64,000 nt of DNA. Origin: Longibacter salinarum. GTDB lineage: Bacteria > Bacteroidota > Rhodothermia > Rhodothermales > Salinibacteraceae. Below, in pieces: positions 52,498 through 64,000 of the stretch. A program made the translations under genes and the position numbers. The first letter of the stretch is position 1, and every line of letters starts with the position of its first letter. The stretch spans positions 62,001 to 126,000 of the forward strand of contig NZ_PDEQ01000010.1 in the NCBI RefSeq assembly GCF_002554795.1, given 5' to 3'. The notes under the pieces were generated by a model that ran no database searches, had not been told where the DNA came from, and saw only the letters and a program-made list of their open reading frames with translations.

Positions 52498-53067
52498 ATG
52501 CGAGGAACCGAACGATCATTGTGCCGACCGTCCACGCCGCTGGTCGTGGCTCCCCTCCGGTTTCTCGACATCGAAACCTCGGGGCTGCGCGCCGACCGCG
52601 GGGCACGGATTACGGAGATTGCGTTGCTGTCCGATCGTGACGTGAAGCTCGACTGGTGCTACGACGAATGTGGCGAGATCGGATCGGAGGCTCACGATGT
52701 AGCGGTGCACTCACAACTCGCTCATCTCGTTCGGGGCATGTCGGAAACCGTTATCGTCGCGCACAACGCTCCGTTCGACCTTAAATTTATCGCGTACGAG
52801 GCGCGGAGACTTGGCGTACGGGGTCTGGACGTTCGGGTGATCGACACGCTCGCACTGTCGCGACGGCTTCACCCGGACCTCCGGAACCATCGGCTGGAGA
52901 CGCTGGCGGAGGCGTTCGGGCTTTCCGCTCCCGGTCCATTCCATACCGCGATGACGGATGCTAATGTCACGCGCTCCCTCTTTCAGCATTTACAGACGGA
53001 CGGAGCGCTCGACACGCTCGGTGACGCAGGCATTCGGCGCCTCCGGTGGTCGGAGCCGATGGAATAG
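52498..53067 (+). CDS. DnaQ-like DEDDh 3'-5' exonuclease
   Basis: This 189-aa nuclease has a complete DEDDh active site: Asp24 and Glu26 in FLDIETSG, Asp94 in VAHNAPFDLKF, and His149 with Asp154 in FHTAMTDAN. Related proteins are the proofreading subunit epsilon, RNase T and the exonuclease domains fused to Cas2 in some type I-E systems, where they trim prespacers. It lies 196 bases before cas3 on the same strand, and the cas2 here has no fused DnaQ domain. A link to adaptation is possible but unproven. Confidence 0.87.
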   Translation: MRGTERSLCRPSTPLVVAPLRFLDIETSGLRADRGARITEIALLSDRDVKLDWCYDECGEIGSEAHDVAVHSQLAHLVRGMSETVIVAHNAPFDLKFIAYEARRLGVRGLDVRVIDTLALSRRLHPDLRNHRLETLAEAFGLSAPGPFHTAMTDANVTRSLFQHLQTDGALDTLGDAGIRRLRWSEPME

Positions 53068-53263: not shown

Positions 53264-56014
53264 ATGATGGAGGGACGTCCTGATACGACGCAGTTCTGGG
53301 CGAAGCTGGAATACGGAGACGATGGTAGACGTGCGTCTGATATCACGGCGTGGCACCCGCTTCTCGCGCACTCGGCCGACGTGGCGGCTGCTCTCGAGGT
53401 GCTCCTGCGTGATACGATTGTCGGGCGAAGGCTTGCTGGCCTCGGTGGGCTCGTTGAACTTGGACCGATCCGTATCGCTCGTCTCTGCGCCCTCGCCACG
53501 ATTCACGACGCGGGCAAAGCGAACCATGGTTTTCAGGACCGGGCGTTCAAGGGAGGGGCAAGGCGAAAGGGACATCAGAAGCCGATCATTCAAGTCGGAG
53601 ACGATGGTGGTCTTTCGGATCGGATCTGGGTACCGCTGGAGATTGGAAGCATGATGCGGTGGTTCCGCGAGAGGATTGACTTGAAGTCATTTCTCCATAC
53701 CACGTGGTCTCATCACGGGAGGCCTGTGAAGGCAAAGGGAGGCATCTCATATGCGATCTGGGATGACAACAACCGTCGATCGCCGGCTGAGGAGATCGCG
53801 CGCTTGGGTAAAGCTGCTCTGCACTGGTTCCCGGATGCCTTCCAAAGCGGAGATCTGCTCCCCGGCGCGACTGGTCCGTTTGAGCATGCGTTCAATGGGG
53901 CGCTCACGCTGGCCGACTGGATCGGCTCGAGCTTTCCGTTCTGGAATCCGGACGAAGACGGCGATCCCAACGACCTGGACGCGCTCATCACGCGGGCTCG
54001 GCGTCTGGCCGAAGATCGATTGCAGAAGCGAGCCCTCATCGCGGCGCCGTTTCAGTCCGCCATCGCCGACCGTGTGCCATTCGGCGGGGTGCTGGACGAT
54101 CCGGGATGGACGCCTCGCCCCGTTCAGTCGGTGACTGCTGATCGACCGATATTCGAGGAGGGAGCGCTGACGATCCTGGAGTCGGATACCGGCTCGGGAA
54201 AAACGGAGGCGGCGCTGGAGCGATTCTTTCACTTGTACGAGAAGGGGGCCGTTGACGGGCTGTACTTTGCGCTGCCGACGCGAACGGCCGCACGGCAGAT
54301 CTACAACCGCGTGGAGCGAGTCGTAAAGCGCGTATTCGAGGTCCACGACGCCGATCCGCCGCCCGTGATTCAAGCTGTGCCGGGATACATCGAAGCCGAC
54401 GGCGTGAAGGGCGTGCCGATCGACCGGTTCGATGTGCAATGGCACGACGATATGGAGGAAGACGTCGCCCGCGAGCGACGGTGGGCCGCCGAGCAGCCCA
54501 AGCAGTATCTCGCTGGATCGGTCGTGATCGGAACGGTGGACCAGGCACTACTGTCGGCGCTACAGACGCGCTACGCCCATGCTCGCGGCACGGCACTTCT
54601 CCGGCATTTCCTTGTGGTGGATGAGGTGCATGCGTCGGACATGTACATGACGCAGATCCTAAATGCCGTCCTGGACCATCACCTCTCCGCCGGGGGACAC
54701 GCCCTCTTGATGTCCGCCACCCTTGGTACGGCAGCGCGCATAGCGTTTTCAGAACAGAAGACCGGCCGTCAGCACGTACCGGATGTAGAGGAGGCCATGA
54801 GGGCCGGCTACCCGCTCGTAACGCACGTCTCAGCCGAGCGACATACGCCGGATCCGCAGGCGACTGATCCGTCTGGATACCGGAAGGCAGTCGAAATGCA
54901 GGTTGCTCCCGTTGCCGGGGATCCGGACGCCATTGCCCAACGCGCGATCGAAGCGGCCCGCGATGGAGCTCGAGTCCTCATCATTCGGAACCGGGTGGAA
55001 GACTGCATTGATGTGCAGAAGGCGGTCGAGGCGCACCTTGCACCCGATGAGCGGGATCTTCTTCTACAGGTTCACGGCACGCCCGCACCGCATCATTCTC
55101 GTTTCGCGAAGGCAGATCGGTCGGCGCTGGATGATGCGATCGAGACGGCCTTCGGAAAGGACGAACCGATTCGAGGCGTCATCGCGGTGGCAACACAGAC
55201 CGTCCAGATGTCTCTCGACCTGTCGGCATCGCTGATGATTACGGATCTATGCCCCGTAGATGTGCTTTTGCAGCGGATCGGGCGGCTCCACCGGCATGGT
55301 CGCGATGAGCATCCTGCTGGCTACGATGTGCCGCGATGCGTCGTGCTGACGCCGGAATCACGTGAGATGGCGGAATGGATATGGGAGGGACGCGGGGACC
55401 TGCAGGATATGGCGATCAAGGGGCCGCACGGCCTCGGCACGGTCTATCAGGATCTGCGCGTGATCGAAGCGACGTGGCGATTGGTCGAGCCGGGAGATGG
55501 AGACGAGATGGTGACCTGGACGATTCCCGACGATAACCGAAAGCTCGTTGAGCGCGGCACAAACCCGCACGTCCTCGACCGGATCATGGACGAGAACATG
55601 GGGCGGGAAGACGCTACCGCGTGGCAGAAGCACGCCGATTATCTCTTCGGTCAAAACAGCGCCGCAAAGCTCAGCGCAAAGAACGTTTGCCTCCCGTACG
55701 ACCGGCCCTTCATGAACGTCACTTTCCCGGACGACGATATCAATGCCGCAAAGACGCGCCTGGGTCTCGACGACGTCACAGTGGAGCTTCCCGAAGCGGT
55801 TCCGAGTCCGTTTCAGCCGGACGGACCCGCCGTCGTCCGCCGATTCTCGATCCCGAGATACTGGCTGCGCGACCGCGATGATGATACGCCGCTACCGGAT
55901 GACTTTGATGTCACAGTCGAACAGGACTGCGATCGGACCGGTGGTAATATTATCTTAACATTATTGGGTAAATCGTTTCTATACAGTCGGTTAGGGTTTA
56001 GGAAGCGCGGTTAG
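53264..56014 (+). CDS. cas3: Cas3 nuclease-helicase, type I-E
   Basis: This 916-aa effector nuclease is recruited by Cascade to unwind and degrade target DNA. The N-terminal HD nuclease has His36 (HPLLAHSADV), His81-Asp82 (IHDAGK), His150-His151 (WSHHG) and Asp218 (LADWIG). The superfamily 2 helicase follows with Walker A DTGSGKT (308-314), DEVH (453-456), MSATLG, TQTVQMSLDLSA and motif VI QRIGRLHRHGR. A C-terminal domain completes it. All key residues are present, so it should be active. The ATG pair at 53,264/53,267 starts the gene. It is the first gene of the cas block. Confidence 0.96.
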   Translation: MMEGRPDTTQFWAKLEYGDDGRRASDITAWHPLLAHSADVAAALEVLLRDTIVGRRLAGLGGLVELGPIRIARLCALATIHDAGKANHGFQDRAFKGGARRKGHQKPIIQVGDDGGLSDRIWVPLEIGSMMRWFRERIDLKSFLHTTWSHHGRPVKAKGGISYAIWDDNNRRSPAEEIARLGKAALHWFPDAFQSGDLLPGATGPFEHAFNGALTLADWIGSSFPFWNPDEDGDPNDLDALITRARRLAEDRLQKRALIAAPFQSAIADRVPFGGVLDDPGWTPRPVQSVTADRPIFEEGALTILESDTGSGKTEAALERFFHLYEKGAVDGLYFALPTRTAARQIYNRVERVVKRVFEVHDADPPPVIQAVPGYIEADGVKGVPIDRFDVQWHDDMEEDVARERRWAAEQPKQYLAGSVVIGTVDQALLSALQTRYAHARGTALLRHFLVVDEVHASDMYMTQILNAVLDHHLSAGGHALLMSATLGTAARIAFSEQKTGRQHVPDVEEAMRAGYPLVTHVSAERHTPDPQATDPSGYRKAVEMQVAPVAGDPDAIAQRAIEAARDGARVLIIRNRVEDCIDVQKAVEAHLAPDERDLLLQVHGTPAPHHSRFAKADRSALDDAIETAFGKDEPIRGVIAVATQTVQMSLDLSASLMITDLCPVDVLLQRIGRLHRHGRDEHPAGYDVPRCVVLTPESREMAEWIWEGRGDLQDMAIKGPHGLGTVYQDLRVIEATWRLVEPGDGDEMVTWTIPDDNRKLVERGTNPHVLDRIMDENMGREDATAWQKHADYLFGQNSAAKLSAKNVCLPYDRPFMNVTFPDDDINAAKTRLGLDDVTVELPEAVPSPFQPDGPAVVRRFSIPRYWLRDRDDDTPLPDDFDVTVEQDCDRTGGNIILTLLGKSFLYSRLGFRKRG

Positions 56015-56233
56015 TCACGAGTAACGTCTGGTATGTTCTTGATTTTCGTTCTCCTGGGACCTTCGTTGTATTTGCGACGCTGATTGATCAGCGATAGCCC
56101 GATACCAGACGTGACAAGTACTGGTACCGATACAGTGGCTCCGATTTCTCGGAGGAAAAGAAAAGCCCCGCCACTGAAGATGGCGGAGCTCGAAAGCGCC
56201 GAGGACGAGTCGGCGCTGAAGCTGTAATCAGCG
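56015..56233 (-). ncRNA. Hairpin-rich segment between cas3 and the 158-aa gene; candidate structured RNA
   Basis: Four structures lie within 200 bp. An 11-bp inverted repeat ACGTCTGGTAT / ATACCAGACGT (56,024-56,034 and 56,102-56,112) encloses a hairpin CGCTGA-TTGA-TCAGCG (56,079-56,094). A perfect 8-bp stem AGCGCCGA / TCGGCGCT lies at 56,195-56,217, and a terminator hairpin at 56,152-56,190. The terminator works only on the minus strand, and no convincing minus-strand protein gene precedes it. A small minus-strand RNA that ends here is the simplest reading; its start is not known. Confidence 0.4.
56152..56190 (-). terminator. Minus-strand Rho-independent terminator inside the cas operon
   Basis: On the minus strand AGCTCCGCCA / TGGCGGGGCT (one mismatch, 7-base loop TCTTCAG) is followed by TTTTCTTTTCC. 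It faces against the cas genes. Confidence 0.75.
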
Positions 56234-56710
56234 ATGGAGACCGCTACAATCACAGCAAAACCAAGTTACGGCATGCGTCGAAAAAGTCAAATTCAGGATG
56301 TACTCGGGCGAATGGTTCTGGCAGGACTGACGCCGATACCGGTTATAGGCGCAGACATACGCCATTTCCGTTTGGGACACGAGTGTCGTTTTGCACTGCT
56401 TTCCAGCAACAGATCCGGAGACTTGTGGGAGGTGAGCCTGTCGGAACGAGTTGTTTGCGGGTTGAAGTCGATGCTGCGACAAAAGCGATCCCTTTTCGAT
56501 CGGTTTAGCATTGGACTGGCCTGCGGGAGTGAACTCTGCTGGCTTCACGAAGATGAGTGGACCAAACTCATTGATTTGGACAAGCCTGCAGCCCAGAAGC
56601 TCTTTGTTCGCCGGCCGGAAAACTGCTCATTTAGAGTCTGGAGCGAGTCGAGTTTCCTCTCGAAAACAGTACCGCTCAAGCGTCTTTCTACCCTCGCAAA
56701 AGCCGCGTAG
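56234..56710 (+). CDS. Unknown 158-aa protein encoded between cas3 and cas8e
   Basis: The ORF ends four bases before the cas8e ATG and lies in the cas reading direction. The protein is basic, with a compact alpha/beta-like pattern (IRHFRLGHECRFALLSSN, GDLWEVSLSERVVCGLKSML, LFDRFSIGLACGSELCWL, DEWTKLIDLDKPAAQKLFV) and four cysteines. No signal peptide, membrane segment or known motif is visible. Codon use is less G+C-rich at third positions than in the cas genes, suggesting separate origin. I do not recognise the family. It could be a regulator, an accessory nuclease or an anti-MGE factor; no function is assigned. A later start (Met at residue 14) is possible. Confidence 0.6.
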   Translation: METATITAKPSYGMRRKSQIQDVLGRMVLAGLTPIPVIGADIRHFRLGHECRFALLSSNRSGDLWEVSLSERVVCGLKSMLRQKRSLFDRFSIGLACGSELCWLHEDEWTKLIDLDKPAAQKLFVRRPENCSFRVWSESSFLSKTVPLKRLSTLAKAA

Positions 56711-56714
56711 AATC

Positions 56715-58268
56715 ATGGAAGCAGAAGAGAATAAATTTTCCCTTCTCGACGACGGACTGTTTCGCGTTCGCGGCGATGACGGTGTGCGGGAGTGCTCGTT
56801 GCCGGAGGTCCTGGCGGCGCTGCAGGCGGATGCCGTGGCGAGCTTCGACGGTCTGCAGGCGCATCAGGAGCAGGCGTGGTATGCATTCCTCGTCCAGCTT
56901 GCGGCGATGATCCGCGCGCGCACCGACCGCACCGGCGACCTCGATACGTCCGACTGGCGCAGCGGCTGTCTCGACCTGGCCGAGGGCAACGAAAATGCCT
57001 GGCACCTGGTCGTTTCTGACGTTACCGAGCCGGCGTTCATGCAGTCGCCGGTCCCGGAAGGATCGCTCGACGAGGCAAAGTACAAGAGCGACATTCCATC
57101 GCCGTCGTCGCTGGACGTGCTGGTCACGTCCAAGAACCACGACGTGAAGCAAACTCCGATTCGCTACCCGCGGACGGAGCACTGGATCTACGCGTTGATC
57201 ACGCTGCAGACCATGGAGGGCTTCCTCGGTCGTGGCAATTACGGGATTGCGCGTATGAACGGAGGGTTCGGGAATCGTCCGCTTGTGGGGCTGGCCCCTG
57301 GGCTATCGTTCGGGGAGCGGTTTCGGCGCGATGTGCGTGTGCTTGCAGAGACCCACGACGACACGGTGCTCTGGGATGCGGACGGCCGATTCAAACTACT
57401 CTGGACCGAGCCGTGGGACGGCGCGAAGGCAAGCGCGATCTCGCTGGACAACTGTGACCCGTACGTGATCGAGATCTGCCGGCGCATCCGGTTCACGATG
57501 GATGACGGCTCGCTGACCTGCTGGCGGGCGAACACAAAGGGACAGCGTCTCAACGTGCCGTCGTCGCTCAGCGGACAAACGGAAGACCCGTGGACGCCGG
57601 TTGATAAGGGCGAAGACAAGGCGCTGACGCTTGGTGGCGGCGGGTTTACGTACCGCAAGCTCACCGATATTCTCAGCGGAAATTATGAGCGGCCGGTCAC
57701 CCTTGAGCGGCAGTCTAATGATGCCGGGGCCATGTTCGTAACGGCCCGGAGTCTCGTGCGTGGTCAGGGGAAAACGGAAGGTCTGCACCACCGAGATATT
57801 TTTGTACCGGGAGAAGCGAGCGGTTTCTTTTCTCAAGGAAGCGACCTTTGGCAGAAGCTCGCCGAGATCTCCGAGCAACGTGTGGAGATGGTGCAGGAGG
57901 TTGAGTCTCGCGTACTGCGCCCGGCTGTGGCGGCGCTCCTCACAGGCGGCCGGCGGGACGAGCAACCCGATTGGGATGTCGTTCAGCCGTGGATCGATGC
58001 CTTCGACACTCGGGTCAACGAGGTCTTTTTCGAAAAGCTGTGGGCCGCCGTCAATCTCGACAAACGTCAAGCCCAGAACGCCTGGGAGCATTTTCTGAAA
58101 ACAGAGGCCTGCAGTCAGTTCGAGGCGGCGACCGAAAACGTGCCCATTCCGGACCTGCGCAAATGGCGCGCCCTCAGCGCCGCCCGATCCATTTTCGAGA
58201 GCCGAATCCGCGACACGCTGGAGATGGCGTACGACGACGAATCTTCTTCAACCGACACGGACGAATAG
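56715..58268 (+). CDS. cas8e: Cas8e (CasA/Cse1), Cascade large subunit
   Basis: This 517-aa subunit recognises the PAM and recruits Cas3. The N-terminal part has FSLLDDGLFRVRGDDG and VRECSLPEVLAALQAD. The central Cse1 region includes DVLVTSKNHDVKQTPIRYPRTEHWIYALITLQTMEG and the glycine-rich GRGNYGIARMNGGFGNRPLVGL, which resembles the L1/PAM-recognition region. The C-terminal four-helix bundle follows (about 380-517). The ATG at 56,715 (MEAEENKFSLL) is the natural start; the longer frame from 56,511 overlaps the 158-aa gene. cas11 starts nine bases after its stop. Confidence 0.93.
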   Translation: MEAEENKFSLLDDGLFRVRGDDGVRECSLPEVLAALQADAVASFDGLQAHQEQAWYAFLVQLAAMIRARTDRTGDLDTSDWRSGCLDLAEGNENAWHLVVSDVTEPAFMQSPVPEGSLDEAKYKSDIPSPSSLDVLVTSKNHDVKQTPIRYPRTEHWIYALITLQTMEGFLGRGNYGIARMNGGFGNRPLVGLAPGLSFGERFRRDVRVLAETHDDTVLWDADGRFKLLWTEPWDGAKASAISLDNCDPYVIEICRRIRFTMDDGSLTCWRANTKGQRLNVPSSLSGQTEDPWTPVDKGEDKALTLGGGGFTYRKLTDILSGNYERPVTLERQSNDAGAMFVTARSLVRGQGKTEGLHHRDIFVPGEASGFFSQGSDLWQKLAEISEQRVEMVQEVESRVLRPAVAALLTGGRRDEQPDWDVVQPWIDAFDTRVNEVFFEKLWAAVNLDKRQAQNAWEHFLKTEACSQFEAATENVPIPDLRKWRALSAARSIFESRIRDTLEMAYDDESSSTDTDE

Positions 58269-58277
58269 CGATCTGAT

Positions 58278-58886
58278 ATGTACCGATTTCAGCAAACGAA
58301 GTACGCCCGGGCCGATGCGGCGACGGGAGAGACACCGGCCGCGGATGCATCGACCACGACATCTGAAGACGAGATCTCAAGGCGACTGAACAGCGCCATT
58401 GGAAAGATCGCGCGTCGCATGGGACCGGACGGCGAGATGTCGAACGGAAATATCGCGGAGTTGCGGCGGATTTCTTCTGAGAACCCCTTTACCCCTGCAC
58501 TCTGGAAGGTGTTATTCGACTACGACCTGGAGAATGCCCGGCTCGGACTCGACCAGGACACATACGAGCGCCGGATGGCGACCCTCCTCATGGGAATGGC
58601 GCATTGTGCCGGGCTCCACGATTACGGCACGTCGCTCGGGCAAGCGCTCGCGGAGGCCGGATGGTCGGAGCTTCGGTTCGTCCGGCTCATGGAGGCACGG
58701 GGCGAAACCCTCGAGTCCCTCATCCGCCGCCTCGCGCAGTACCTCGCAAGCAAAGGACAGCCTGCGAACTGGGTCGACGTTGCGCGGCTTCTTCTCCAAC
58801 AAGAAGGCGATAAAGCAGAAACGACACGGCTTAACATCTCCCGGAGCTACTACGGCACGCTCTATAGCAAGGAAAACACCGAATGA
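58278..58886 (+). CDS. casB: Cas11 (CasB/Cse2), Cascade small subunit
   Basis: This 202-aa, mainly helical protein is present in two copies per Cascade and stabilises the displaced DNA strand. The Cse2 features are NIAELRRISSENPFTPALWKVL, TLLMGMAHCAG, GWSELRFVRLMEARGETL and a C-terminal RLNISRSYYGTLY. The first 30 residues are Ala/Thr/Ser-rich and probably disordered. Its TGA overlaps the ATG of cas7e (ATGA), so translation is coupled. Confidence 0.92.
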   Translation: MYRFQQTKYARADAATGETPAADASTTTSEDEISRRLNSAIGKIARRMGPDGEMSNGNIAELRRISSENPFTPALWKVLFDYDLENARLGLDQDTYERRMATLLMGMAHCAGLHDYGTSLGQALAEAGWSELRFVRLMEARGETLESLIRRLAQYLASKGQPANWVDVARLLLQQEGDKAETTRLNISRSYYGTLYSKENTE

Positions 58887-60214
58887 GTTCGGAGTGGCAT
58901 ACCCCGACAGTTCCTCTCGACGATCAACGACGTACGTCTATGTTTCTTCAGTTCCACACCCTGACCTCGTATCCCGGCACGCTCCTCAACCGCGATGACG
59001 CCGGCTTCGCCAAACGCTTGCCCTTCGGCGGCTCGACGCGAATCCGCGTGTCCTCGCAGTGCCTGAAATACCACTGGCGCAACTTCGACGGCGAGAATGC
59101 CCTCTACCGGATGGATGTGCCGAAGTCGCTTCGGTCGCGCGAAACGTTCCGCCGCCGCATCGCTCAGCCGCTCATCGACGACGGATATCCCGAGCCGCTC
59201 GTTTACGCCGTGACGCTTTCGCTGAAGGAGCGGGTCGTCTCCGGGGGTACCGCAAATAAGTCGGATGTTAAGAAAGCCATCCAGGCGGAAGAGCCGAAAG
59301 AGATCTCCGAAGCGCTGGACACGAATCAGGTGACGATTCTCGGCGCACCGGAGATGAACTACCTTCACGACCTGGCCGCCGACGTGCTCGACAGCGTCGA
59401 GGATGAGTTTTCGGTGTTCTGGGAGGACAACGGGGAGCCGGACAGCGATGCCGTGGGCGACGCCGCGGATGCCATCCGGAAGTCCGATCTCCTAAAGGCA
59501 AAGGATGTCAAGAAAAACCTGAAGGGGCTGTCTCTGGCTTCGGGACTCGATGCCGCACTGTTCGGGCGTATGGCGACGAGCGACGTGCTTGCGCGAGGCG
59601 ATGCGGCCATTCACGTTGCCCACGCTTTTACGACGCACAAAGGTGAGGCGGAGAGCGACTACTTCTCTGCGGTGGATGAACTGCGACGGGACGAGCCAGA
59701 GGAGAGTGGCGAAATGGGCGCCGGACACATCAATAGCCAGGAGCTGACGAGCGGGCTGTTCTACAGCTACGTCGTCATCGACGTGTCGCTTCTCGTGTCG
59801 AACCTCGAAGGCTGTCCGCGAGAGGAGTGGACCGAGGCGGATCATACGCTCGCGTCTTCGGTCGTGGAGCGGTTTGTGCATCTCATGGCAACGGTTTCCC
59901 CCGGGGCCAAACTCGGTTCGACCGCGCCGTACAGCTACGCGCAGTGCATGATCGGTGAGGCCGGCACCGCTCAGCCCCGAACGCTCGCCAACGCCTTCCA
60001 GACGGCGGTCCCGCGCAACGACGTGTTGAACAGCAGCATGGCGTCCCTGGCGGAGCACATCGAGGGAATGAACGGGATGTACGGATCGACGAATGACGTG
60101 CGATTGGCCGCGATGGGCGAGACGGATGCTCTGGCCGATGCCCTCGGCGTGGAGGACACCGTCTCCGTTCCGGAAATCGCGGAATGGTCTGCCGGGGTCG
60201 TCCGCGGCGCGTAA
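58883..60214 (+). CDS. cas7e: Cas7e (CasC/Cse4), Cascade backbone
   Basis: This 443-aa RAMP protein forms the six-subunit crRNA-binding backbone. The family N-terminus FLQFHTLTSYPGTLLNRDDAG and FGGSTRIRVSSQCLKYHWR are clear, as are GHINSQELTSGLFYSYVVIDVSLLV and PGAKLGSTAPYSYAQCMI. The ATG at 58,883 overlaps the casB stop; an internal ATG at 58,940 would give the conventional N-terminus MFLQFHTLTS and may be the real start. The thumb-region helices lie in the middle. Confidence 0.94.
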   Translation: MSSEWHTPTVPLDDQRRTSMFLQFHTLTSYPGTLLNRDDAGFAKRLPFGGSTRIRVSSQCLKYHWRNFDGENALYRMDVPKSLRSRETFRRRIAQPLIDDGYPEPLVYAVTLSLKERVVSGGTANKSDVKKAIQAEEPKEISEALDTNQVTILGAPEMNYLHDLAADVLDSVEDEFSVFWEDNGEPDSDAVGDAADAIRKSDLLKAKDVKKNLKGLSLASGLDAALFGRMATSDVLARGDAAIHVAHAFTTHKGEAESDYFSAVDELRRDEPEESGEMGAGHINSQELTSGLFYSYVVIDVSLLVSNLEGCPREEWTEADHTLASSVVERFVHLMATVSPGAKLGSTAPYSYAQCMIGEAGTAQPRTLANAFQTAVPRNDVLNSSMASLAEHIEGMNGMYGSTNDVRLAAMGETDALADALGVEDTVSVPEIAEWSAGVVRGA

Positions 60215-60252
60215 TCTCCCGTGCGCTATTGTCTCTCCATCCCCACGTGATC

Positions 60253-60969
60253 ATGGATGTACTTTTCCTTCGATTCGACGCTCCGATGATGAGCTTCGGC
60301 GGCCCGATCATCGACAATCGCGGTGTGATTCAGGCATACCCGGCGCTGTCGATGATTACGGGCCTGCTCGGCAACGCCCTCGGCGTTGATCATAGCGAAC
60401 ACGAGCGACTGCAGGACTTGCAGGAGCGGATCCGCCATGCCGTCCGCCGCGACCGAGAGGGCAAGCGGCTTCAGGACTACCAGACAGTGGACTTTTCGAA
60501 GCCGTACATGGACGACGCACGAGCCTGGACGACCGACGGCAGGCTGGAGCAGCGAAAGGGCGGCTCGGCCAGTTCGGGGACGCATATCCGCGAGCGCGAT
60601 TACCTCGCCGGAGCGTGCTACACAATTGCACTGACTCTCGACCGTCCCTCCGAGTCTCCGACGCTAGACGATCTGGCCGATGCACTCCGTGCCCCGGCTC
60701 GTCCTCTCTTCATTGGTCGCAAGCCGTGTCTCCCTGCCGAGCCGTTGTACGCCGGGCGAACCACCGCAGAGGACTTGACAGCAGCACTGTCCGATCCGGA
60801 GTTCTTTCCGAATGAACGGGATGACGGGCCGTACGCCATCTGGATGGAGGCGGACCGCGACGATCCACAGGCGCGCCCCTATACCGACCGCCGCGACTGG
60901 CAGAACCAGGTGCACACGGGCCAGCGATGGGTCAAAGAGGACCACGTGGAGATCGCCACGTCGGCATAG
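60253..60969 (+). CDS. cas5e: Cas5e (CasD), crRNA 5'-handle-binding subunit
   Basis: This 238-aa RAMP protein caps the crRNA 5' handle in Cascade. The N-terminal VLFLRFDAPMMSFGGPIIDN is the family version of the first strand and glycine loop. ALSMITGLLGNALGVDHSE, THIRERDYLAGACYTIAL and ARPLFIGRKPCLPAEPLY are further landmarks. The ATG at 60,253 follows cas7e by 38 bases; the frame is open from 60,184, but that start would overlap cas7e and is not family-like. Confidence 0.93.
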   Translation: MDVLFLRFDAPMMSFGGPIIDNRGVIQAYPALSMITGLLGNALGVDHSEHERLQDLQERIRHAVRRDREGKRLQDYQTVDFSKPYMDDARAWTTDGRLEQRKGGSASSGTHIRERDYLAGACYTIALTLDRPSESPTLDDLADALRAPARPLFIGRKPCLPAEPLYAGRTTAEDLTAALSDPEFFPNERDDGPYAIWMEADRDDPQARPYTDRRDWQNQVHTGQRWVKEDHVEIATSA

Positions 60970-60989
60970 CACCGACCTGACTTTTTGTA

Positions 60990-61814
60990 ATGACGTTTGA
61001 ACCCATGACGACCGATACCGCCGCGCTGCATATGGTGCAGCTCTTTCTCGACCCACGCCGTCTCGTACAGCTCGGGAAAATGATGAAGCTGCCGCTCCGC
61101 TCGACCGATACCAATTATCTCGTTCACTGTGCTCTCGGCGAGCTGTTCGGGGACGACGCCCCGAAGCCGTTTTTTGTGGACGACGATCCGCGCCCGGTTG
61201 AGGAGACGGGTGATCGCGACCGGTTCGTGCGGGTGCTTGGTTATGCCGAGATGCCCGATGAGGATCTAGAGGCCGAAGCGCGCCTGTGCCCTAATCCGAC
61301 GATCCACTCGATGTGCGACTGGGACCGGTTTGACAGTAGCGATATGCCCCGTCGTCTCGCGGTGGACCGCTGTCTTGAATTCCACCTTCGATGCTGTCCG
61401 ATCGTCCGGAAGGGCTCGGCGGGACAGGGGAAGAATGCTGAGGGAGAGGTCCGAACGTGGCGTGAAGGGCAGGAGCTCGACGCCTTCCTGAGCGCGGCGT
61501 GGGAGGCGGGGCCGGATGCCGAGATCGATCGGGAGTCCGCGTACGTGGACTGGCTGAAGCACCAGTTCGACGTCCGCGGCGGAGCCGAGATCGAATCGGC
61601 CGGCGTGGAGCGCTTTTCGATCGAACGAATGACCCGGCGTACGCAGTCCAATGGCGACGGCGAACGGACGGCAAAGACCATCAAACGGCCGGATGTGACG
61701 CTCCGTGGTGTCCTGCGGGTGACCGATGCCGAGGAATTCAACCACCTCCTACGCAGTGGAATCGGCCGGCACAAGAGCTTCGGATTCGGCATGCTCAAAA
61801 TCCGCCGCGCGTAG
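60990..61814 (+). CDS. cas6e: Cas6e (CasE), crRNA-processing endoribonuclease
   Basis: This 274-aa RAMP nuclease cuts the repeat RNA at the base of its hairpin. A candidate catalytic His46 lies in NYLVHCALGELFG, matching the position after the first strand and helix in CasE. The C-terminal glycine-rich loop GIGRHKSFGFGMLKIRR is diagnostic. It must process both repeat types in the window, whose stems differ by compensatory changes. An ATG 15 bases downstream (MTTDTAALHM) is an alternative start. Confidence 0.93.
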   Translation: MTFEPMTTDTAALHMVQLFLDPRRLVQLGKMMKLPLRSTDTNYLVHCALGELFGDDAPKPFFVDDDPRPVEETGDRDRFVRVLGYAEMPDEDLEAEARLCPNPTIHSMCDWDRFDSSDMPRRLAVDRCLEFHLRCCPIVRKGSAGQGKNAEGEVRTWREGQELDAFLSAAWEAGPDAEIDRESAYVDWLKHQFDVRGGAEIESAGVERFSIERMTRRTQSNGDGERTAKTIKRPDVTLRGVLRVTDAEEFNHLLRSGIGRHKSFGFGMLKIRRA

Positions 61815-61892
61815 TCGGCGTGCGGGTTTCATACACGTGATCTCGATTCACTTCGCATTTCGTATTTAGCCCTTCGAATTGCCTTCTGCTCC
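61815..61892. other. Word-like sequence inside the cas operon
   Basis: Between cas6e and cas1, 61,847-61,885 reads TTCACTTCGCATTTCGT and ATTTAGCCCTTCGAATTGCC, the same words seen after array 1 and near nosY. It is the only such insertion among the cas genes. Confidence 0.7.
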
Positions 61893-62798
61893 ATGGTTTT
61901 CAAAGGACGACTCGGCCTCGATACGGCGCGCGTACCGCACACGGATCGACACGGCCTGATGTGGCTCGAACGCGGACGGCTGGCCGTGGAGGATGGGAAT
62001 GTCGTGTTCACGACGGCCGGAAGCGACGTGCTGGCGGCGGGCCGGTATAACATTCCGTTTCAGCAGGTGTCGAACATCCTGCTCGGACCGGGTGGTGTCG
62101 TCAGTCATGATGCCCTCCGTCATCTCGCCCGGCAGCAGACGGGTCTCGTGGCAGTCGGGTCGAAGGGCGTGCGGTTGTACGCGGTGTTCATGCCATTCGG
62201 CCCCGACCGCTCCGATCGTGCGCGTCAGCACGCCGAGCTTTGGGCAGATCCGGATCGACGCATCGACGTGGCCCGCGCCATGTACGCTCGTCGGCTTGGG
62301 GGCGAACTGCCGCCCCATCGCCGCGACCTCGATTCGCTCCGTGGACTGGAGGGGACGCGCGTCCGGCAGGTGTACCGAACACTTTCCGAGCAGCACGGCG
62401 TCCCGTGGTCCGGGCGCCGGTATGACCGTTCGAACCCGGAATCGGCTGATCCGCCGAACCGCGCGCTGAATCACGTCGTCACCGCCATGTATGCCGCCGC
62501 CCGTGTGGCCGTCGCGCTCGCTGGTGCTCTACCACAGCTTGGGTTCATTCACGAGTCCTCTGGTCACGCCTTTGCCCTCGACATCGCGGACCTCTACCGT
62601 AGCGAGATCACCGTTCCCGTGGCCTTTCGTGCGGCCAAGCGATTCGAGGAGCGCGGAGGCCGAACGCTTGAGTCCGTCGCTCGAAAAATGGCCGGTCGGA
62701 CCCTCTACGAGGAGGACGTGATTCCGATGATGATCGACGATATCGACGAGTTGCTCACGCTCGATAAACAAGACGGTGAGTCTTCCGCGTCAGACTGA
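61893..62798 (+). CDS. cas1e: Cas1e integrase
   Basis: This 301-aa metal-dependent integrase, with Cas2, inserts new spacers at the leader end. The active-site residues align with E. coli Cas1 as Glu153 (RGLEGTRVRQVY), His220 (GFIHESSGHAF) and Asp230/Asp233 (LDIADLYR). An N-terminal beta domain (about 1-95) precedes the helical catalytic domain. All catalytic residues are present, so adaptation should be functional. It follows cas6e after 78 bases of word-like sequence, and cas2 follows 77 bases later. Confidence 0.96.
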   Translation: MVFKGRLGLDTARVPHTDRHGLMWLERGRLAVEDGNVVFTTAGSDVLAAGRYNIPFQQVSNILLGPGGVVSHDALRHLARQQTGLVAVGSKGVRLYAVFMPFGPDRSDRARQHAELWADPDRRIDVARAMYARRLGGELPPHRRDLDSLRGLEGTRVRQVYRTLSEQHGVPWSGRRYDRSNPESADPPNRALNHVVTAMYAAARVAVALAGALPQLGFIHESSGHAFALDIADLYRSEITVPVAFRAAKRFEERGGRTLESVARKMAGRTLYEEDVIPMMIDDIDELLTLDKQDGESSASD

Positions 62799-62875
62799 TC
62801 GGCTTGATGACAGCAGGCGCAGTTGCCGCAGGATGTCGCCGATAATTGCCATTTCGCACAGGCACTTCATTCCGT

Positions 62876-63283
62876 ATGACCATTGCCGTCACCCGAAATA
62901 CGCCTGGCCGATTTCGCGGCTTTCTGTGTTCGTGCATGCTCGAAATTGCGCCCGGCGTGTTTGCCGCACCGCGTATGAAAACGGCGGTGCGTGAGCGAGT
63001 GTGGAACGTCATGGTCGAATGGTCTGAACTCGTCCCGGACGATGGAGGTGTGGTCATGTTCTGGCGTGATGCCGAGGCTCCGTCCGGAATGGTCGTGCGT
63101 CTGATCGGGTATCCGAAGAAAGAGTTGCTGGAGCACGAAGGGGTGTGGCTCACGCTCACCAATCTGACGGCTGCGCACGACATCGAGGAGCTTCGAACGG
63201 TGTCCGACACCGACGAGGCGCCCGTCAATGACACCGACCCGATGCTCCCGCACCACCTTCAGAACGACGATTCAAGCGACTGA
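62876..63283 (+). CDS. cas2e: Cas2e
   Basis: This 135-aa ferredoxin-fold protein forms the Cas1-Cas2 integration complex. The type I-E form is clear from TIAVTRNTPGRFRGFLCSCMLEIAPGVFAAP, the VWNVMVEW helix and the MFWRDAEAPSGMVVRLIGYP strand pair. The C-terminal 45 residues are longer than in E. coli and acidic, without a nuclease domain. The stop codon TGA is the first three bases of the conserved palindrome of the array 2 leader. The ATG at 62,876 (MTIAVTRN) is the family start. Confidence 0.94.
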   Translation: MTIAVTRNTPGRFRGFLCSCMLEIAPGVFAAPRMKTAVRERVWNVMVEWSELVPDDGGVVMFWRDAEAPSGMVVRLIGYPKKELLEHEGVWLTLTNLTAAHDIEELRTVSDTDEAPVNDTDPMLPHHLQNDDSSD

Positions 63284-63449: not shown

Positions 63450-64000
63450 GGTGACCCCGTGCGAACGGGGATAGACCCATGAGTTTTCGACAGGATCAGG
63501 TAAAGGAAATGGTGACCCCGTGCGAACGGGGATAGACCCGCCCGAGCTGCCCCAGGCGCTGCGCAATCTCAGGTGACCCCGTGCGAACGGGGATAGACCC
63601 TTTGCGAAATCATTTCGAAGTACACAGAATGGGGTGACCCCGTGCGAACGGGGATAGACCCGAGATCCACCTAGACCACCTTCGCTGGGCGCCGGTGACC
63701 CCGTGCGAACGGGGATAGACCCGACCTTGTCGAGATGACGGGTCGTGGCGTCCGGGTGACCCCGTGCGAACGGGGATAGACCCACAAGGACACGGACACA
63801 CAAAGAGATCGCGAAGGTGACCCCGTGCGAACGGGGATAGACCTGATTAGGTCGTGAGGCTCGAGATGTGACGCATGGTGACCCCGTGCGAACGGGGATA
63901 GACCCTCTTGAGAATCCATATGTCCCGCTCCAGATTAGGTGACCCCGTGCGAACGGGGATAGACCCTCAACCAGCGCCTCATACGGGCTGTATGGATCGG
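63450..64000 (+). CRISPR. CRISPR array 2, type I-E, at least 9 repeats, cut by window edge
   Basis: Repeats start at 63,450, 63,511, 63,572, 63,633, 63,694, 63,755, 63,816, 63,877 and 63,938, an exact 61-bp period. The next repeat begins with GG at 63,999. The 28-bp repeat begins GGTGACCCCGT, has the hairpin CCCCGT-GCGA-ACGGGG, and ends GGGGATAGACC. It differs from array 1 at five positions, four of them paired in the stem. Spacers are 33 bp. Confidence 0.98.

Follow-up and report, generated by a model that had tools for sequence, protein, structure and literature searches.

A fast-evolving gene of probable pseudo-nuclease fold at the cas3–cas8e junction of type I-E CRISPR loci in the Salinibacter/Rhodothermus group

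The locus and its additional gene

The window, by which we mean the whole stretch of 64,000 nucleotides of Longibacter salinarum DNA that was analysed, contains a type I-E CRISPR-Cas locus in which a 158-aa open reading frame (ORF) lies between cas3 and cas8e (Table 1). The frame is open and ends with a stop codon at nt 56708–56710. The initial annotation had the ORF fit exactly between its two neighbours. This holds on the side of cas8e, from which it is separated by four bases, but not on the side of cas3, whose stop at nt 56014 is followed by 219 nt before the ATG of the ORF. The four-base spacer suggests that the ORF is co-transcribed with the Cascade genes, and translational coupling with them is possible. 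Translation may in fact start at Met14 (nt 56273), which would give a protein of 145 aa, since the homologues have their first residue at the corresponding position. The gene is present as a single copy in its own genome. A composition unlike that of the neighbours had been noted as well, and the figures agree, since GC is 52% and GC3 0.55 in the ORF as compared with 59–64% and 0.69–0.77 in the cas genes. An ORF of this length appears in 2.7% of random trials with 700-bp sequences of the same composition; length by itself is therefore weak evidence, and homology decides.

The stretch between cas3 and the ORF is the probable promoter and regulatory region, and a search of it for a sigma-70-type promoter gave no match. 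Its inverted repeat has a perfect 11-bp arm, which was reached in 0 of 60 shuffles, and is a candidate for an operator-like element or an RNA structure. A different inverted repeat of 16 bp lies upstream of the Rhodothermus homologue described below, and nothing comparable was found in four other slots. Rfam returned two sub-threshold matches only, both on the terminator-like hairpin. GC-rich hairpins are also seen in other slots between cas3 and the ORF.

Two further features of the locus deserve mention. Directly upstream of cas3 lies a gene for a DEDDh (RNase T/DnaQ-like) exonuclease, which is kept at this place in many related type I-E loci and is a likely prespacer-trimming partner. Cas7e comprises 443 aa as against profile lengths of 309–335, and sizeable insertions are thus present.

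Table 1. Features of the type I-E locus in the window, with coordinates in window positions.
Feature	Position	Strand	Basis or remark
DEDDh exonuclease gene	52498–53067
cas3, left edge of the cargo slot	53264–56014	+	Cas3_HD, helicase, PADLOC Cas3e
Intergenic stretch cas3/ORF	56015–56233	.	GC 53%; AT-richer DNA
Inverted repeat, GTAACGTCTGGTAT (56021–56034) and ATACCAGACGTGAC (56102–56115)	56021–56115	.	arms 67 nt apart
Terminator-like hairpin	56163–56191	-	12 pairs, T-run on minus strand; 2 such sites found, 1.0 expected
158-aa ORF, cas-linked member of PHROG 28860	56234–56710	+	open frame, homologues at same place, PHROG match, AlphaFold model
Spacer ORF to cas8e, four bases	56711–56714	+	cas8e ATG at 56715
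cas8e (cse1), right edge of the cargo slot	56715–58268	+	TIGR02547, PADLOC Cas8e E=3e-140
cas11e, cas7e, cas5e, cas6e, cas1, cas2 (remaining I-E operon)	58278–63283	+	profile matches
cas7e	58883–60214
CRISPR array	63451–64000	+	28-nt repeat GGTGACCCCGTGCGAACGGGGATAGACC, 61-nt period; continues past window end

Homologues and turnover at the cas3–cas8e junction

Homologues were searched for in 60 related genomes, followed by inspection of the surroundings of the matches. The best homologue was found with E=4e-19. The recurrence between cas3 and cas8e that the initial annotation had proposed as a check is indeed seen: six relatives carry a homologue immediately upstream of cas8e and in the same direction (G002, G012, G015, which is Salinibacter altiplanensis, G024, G028, a Rhodothermus, and G045), each in a type I-E locus that is otherwise complete as far as the contig allows. 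The expectation that sister strains would be free of disruption stands for these six intact relatives and fails for two sister loci with broken copies. One of them, G023, has lost the N-terminal half of the gene beside a DUF2442 remnant, and the other, G018, retains a broken relic of the gene beside a cas3 fragment. The G023 copy forms one open frame with cas8e; an ORF-Cas8e fusion was considered and rejected, the copy without its N-terminal half having merely lost its stop. As a separate observation, a more divergent set of I-E effector genes follows the cas3 fragment and relic of G018 (L037 8818–12119), which looks like a replacement of the earlier effector module.

In pairs with the window copy, identity is 0.39–0.46 at the first codon position, 0.48–0.59 at the second and 0.24–0.32 at the third, where 0.25 is expected by chance and the third positions are saturated. 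Conservation of positions 1 and 2 with position 3 near random indicates purifying selection on a fast-evolving protein, so the proposed check for selection gives a pattern that is not random. The ORF is a real protein-coding gene under selection, and a chance ORF is excluded by the homologues together with the codon-position conservation. The window protein used alone found nothing in the genome and viral collections, and the plasmid and phage GenBank collections yielded no convincing relative.

Standard type I-E loci had been said to have no extra gene here, and the survey is in accord with this: the gap between cas3 and cas8e is at most 80 nt in 53 of the 71 I-E loci with cas3 directly upstream, and the family gene is absent from the non-Rhodothermales I-E loci examined. 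The gap of the Salinibacter group measures about 590 nt to 1.7 kb. In the Salinibacter/Rhodothermus group the junction is a cargo slot. Within the Salinibacter group it holds the family gene, VapBC-like pairs (G012, G022 and G013), a DUF4160/DUF2442 pair (G045) and remnants, and it is a hotspot for addiction-type cassettes (L035 8316–9143, L093 3931–4719, L103 3830–4451 and L031 5189–5705). Where one slot carries both kinds of cargo, the toxin-antitoxin-type pair lies towards cas3 and the family gene next to cas8e.

Gain, loss or exchange of slot genes is seen between loci that are 80–99% identical in the adjoining cas genes, and the presence or absence of the family gene requires at least 5 changes on the Cas8e tree. 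For instance, the Rhodothermus G028 carries the gene, while the slot of G042 is empty with 93 nt and a nearly identical cas3 end. A VapBC pair is common to G012 and G022 at 87% DNA identity, and the family gene is present in G012 only. G024 and G015 have Cas8e proteins that are 90% identical and ORFs that are 34% identical, and their DNA alignment is lost from the cas3 end to about codon 38 of cas8e. The turnover of the family gene thus consists of gain, loss and swap independent of the flanking cas genes. An accessory character, as initially suggested, fits a gene that is kept in place beside cas8e and yet is missing from many sister loci. The suggestion that it is specific to this locus has to be dropped, since six further genomes carry the gene in the same slot and members of the family are also found outside cas loci.

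Other arrangements were seen at this junction. G024 possesses two cas3 copies, one of them broken, with a VapBC-like pair in between (L032 10168–15657). An uncultured Dehalococcoidia has an apparent CRISPR array, judged from translation, between cas3 and cas8e, followed by an RHH-like small gene (L154 4814–5560); in Corynebacterium, an array has been reported to lie between cas3 and cse1 (PMC12231136). The nearest anecdote to an extra gene is a single I-F locus of Vibrio cholerae with a hypothetical gene between cas3 and cas8f (PMC6360697). The open-licence papers searched contain no description of the family gene in I-E loci.

Family membership and predicted fold

The window protein matches PHROG 28860 over residues 62–148 with E=8e-4. 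A cas-slot homologue from the Salinibacter group (L035) matches it with E=8e-18 and the viral members with E=1e-19 to 6e-78. A whole-genome search with the PHROG 28860 profile left the window genome below threshold, so the membership of the window protein rests mainly on a chain of relatives. Profile searches also recovered members without cas genes in G003, G032, G033, the Chlorobi-like G300 and G311, G447 and five viral contigs; these members all fall in or near PHROG 28860. The members of G032 and G033 adjoin nitrate-assimilation and GAF-domain-like genes, which were named by eye from sequence. In the Chlorobi-like genomes (L061 4803–5618; L060 around 9500) the family gene comes directly after a conserved 104-aa gene, and in one such genome this partner gene is cut near IS21-like transposase genes.

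In the family tree, the members from cas loci cluster together with support of 79/92. No branch of this tree is longer than that of the window copy, whose Cas8e likewise has one of the longest branches in the Cas8e tree. The window protein belongs to the same family as PHROG 28860 but is the most diverged member and resides in a cas operon. Since free-standing relatives are found in viral contigs and islands, the protein may be able to function in the absence of Cascade. The window protein has no sequence match in Pfam, NCBIfam, PADLOC or the PDB, and a search of the PDB by sequence found nothing even with the family profile. No match to known anti-phage defence proteins was found in PADLOC-DB as it stood in 2023.

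AlphaFold models were built for the window protein (pLDDT 76, pTM 0.70) and the homologue L112 (pLDDT 81.6, pTM 0.78), both from one eight-sequence alignment, so that the two are not fully independent. The best Foldseek matches of both models are PD-(D/E)XK nucleases, with Hjc, RecU, PvuII, I-Ssp6803I, restriction enzymes and the nuclease domain of SPARDA at or near the top. Foldseek probabilities reach 1.00, with E-values above 0.001 for both models. The best VIA Z scores are 7.3 and 7.7, in the range below 8 where chance arrangements still occur, with rmsd of 3.8 and 3.3 Å over 119 and 104 residues. The case for a PD-(D/E)XK fold, to be taken with caution, lies in the accord between both models and in the way a single superfamily dominates the matches. 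The fold predicted for the window protein, and its size, resemble those of Hjc, RecU, PvuII, I-Ssp6803I and the SPARDA nuclease domain. Nevertheless, identity to Hjc and other PD-(D/E)XK nucleases is about 10% with no match at the sequence level, and their catalytic acids are not conserved in the window family.

The 16-member alignment shows no conserved acid at the catalytic D/E positions of strand 2 and strand 3, as mapped by secondary structure and sequence rather than coordinates, with the layout of Hjc taken from general knowledge. The lysine of the third catalytic position is kept in several members and is S, A, T or R in others, the window protein included. Given that no acid is conserved at the catalytic positions, the predicted PD-(D/E)XK-like fold without an active site is probably that of a non-catalytic pseudo-nuclease. 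The residues conserved across the 16 members are instead G, L, W, two C, D, Q and V/F/P, and a different activity through the W, two C, D and Q is possible. The window copy has lost some residues that are otherwise near-invariant, namely the first-helix G and the FP at the C-terminus, and a relaxation of constraint would be in keeping with this too.

Cas4 is a protein of PD-(D/E)XK-type fold encoded in cas loci, as is predicted for the window protein, and has RecB motifs and four cysteines for an iron-sulphur cluster. A Cas4 assignment was rejected, as the window family has two conserved cysteines, no catalytic acids and no Cas4 profile match. A parallel within type I-E is the reported Cas11-VRR-NUC fusion, in which a PD-(D/E)XK-type domain is likewise attached to the I-E system (PMC10910872). 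However, that domain is fused and is called a nuclease, whereas the window protein is encoded by a separate gene before cas8e and lacks the active site. The fusion is thus a precedent for the combination of the fold with I-E, not for the window gene, its place or the loss of the active site.

Possible roles of the slot protein

The reading we tentatively favour, short of holding it to be probable, is that the gene is pseudo-nuclease cargo at the operon head and encodes a nucleic-acid-binding accessory immunity protein that is co-expressed with Cascade. A small PD-(D/E)XK-like protein that has lost its catalytic acids would be encoded as cargo at the head of the Cascade operon of Rhodothermales-type I-E loci and would be transcribed together with cas8e. 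The pseudo-nuclease would attach to nucleic acid directly, or to a protein bound there, and leave the nucleic acid uncut. It would serve as an accessory immunity factor that can function in the absence of Cascade and owes its retention in the cas operon to co-expression. The fast sequence change and the allele swapping of the gene are those expected from an arms race with mobile elements.

A further-reaching proposal, which we regard as unlikely though worth stating, is a new accessory Cas protein of the Rhodothermales branch of I-E. Here a protein with a dead nuclease fold, produced along with Cascade and swapped between strains in the manner of immune alleles, would guard or tune Cascade, for example by binding target DNA or countering inhibitors, and the junction would be a cargo slot for immunity and addiction genes.

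Alternatively, and in line with the regulatory role that the initial annotation also mentioned, the protein could be a transcriptional regulator whose non-catalytic nuclease fold binds the 219-nt region and tunes the genes from the ORF and cas8e through cas11, cas7, cas5, cas6, cas1 and cas2. This is the main rival, again an unlikely one. In its favour, the ORF opens the presumed operon, the window and the Rhodothermus G028 both have inverted repeats upstream of the gene, and exchange of the entire slot as a unit would be accounted for by a regulator that changes along with its operator. However, a comparable repeat is missing in four other slots, members of the family are also found at a distance from cas genes and within viral contigs, sister loci manage without the gene, and no known DNA-binding regulator domain was found.

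The cargo that shares the slot raises the possibility of an addiction element, that is, a toxin, an antitoxin or the relic of a pair, acting as a slot cassette that stabilises the cas locus. VapBC-like pairs (G012, G022, G013) and DUF4160/DUF2442 (G045) occupy the same slot, and a small conserved partner gene precedes the family gene in the Chlorobi-like genomes. Addiction modules inside cas loci are known from CreTA, CRISPR-regulated toxin-antitoxin RNA pairs with degenerate CRISPR repeats (PMC10097628, PMC9458426), which likewise are extra elements inside a type I cas locus. Nevertheless, CreTA consists of RNA pairs whereas the window element is a conserved protein gene; the family gene is without a partner in every cas slot, VapBC or DUF4160/DUF2442 are complete by themselves where present, and no match to known toxin or antitoxin families was found in Pfam, NCBIfam and PADLOC. 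We consider this role improbable. A CreTA-like guide was looked for separately and rejected, since the best repeat match of 17 out of 28 bases is reached by 7.8% of shuffles.

Slightly less credence still is given to a mobile-element passenger with no present immune role, kept because it is harmless to the operon. The relatives in PHROG 28860 and viral contigs, the low GC, the repeated loss with one truncated copy and the long branch of the window copy are in line with such an origin, yet the codon-position conservation points to selection on the protein, the placement is constant across genera, and the long branch is matched by that of the window's Cas8e. An active nuclease whose active site is displaced or unusual, for instance one that trims prespacers in a subtype without Cas4, is the least probable of the alternatives: the fold matches are active nucleases, a VRR-NUC domain of the same type has been reported as a fusion to Cas11 in I-E (PMC10910872) and several members have a lysine at the expected position, but the metal-ligand positions are without conserved acids, several members, that of the window among them, have S, A, T or R in place of the lysine, the DEDDh exonuclease beside cas3 is the likelier trimming enzyme, and the gene is missing from many loci.

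Among the multi-subunit CRISPR subtypes, type I-E has been studied most thoroughly, and its gene set is usually regarded as complete with eight genes. A recurrent, selected and quickly exchanged ninth gene at a fixed junction, with a predicted nuclease fold that lacks the active site, would point to an unstudied layer of Cascade regulation or protection in the halophilic and thermophilic Rhodothermales. The gene also gives a first functional lead on an orphan family in prophage-like contigs, and the closely matched loci with and without it permit a direct test.
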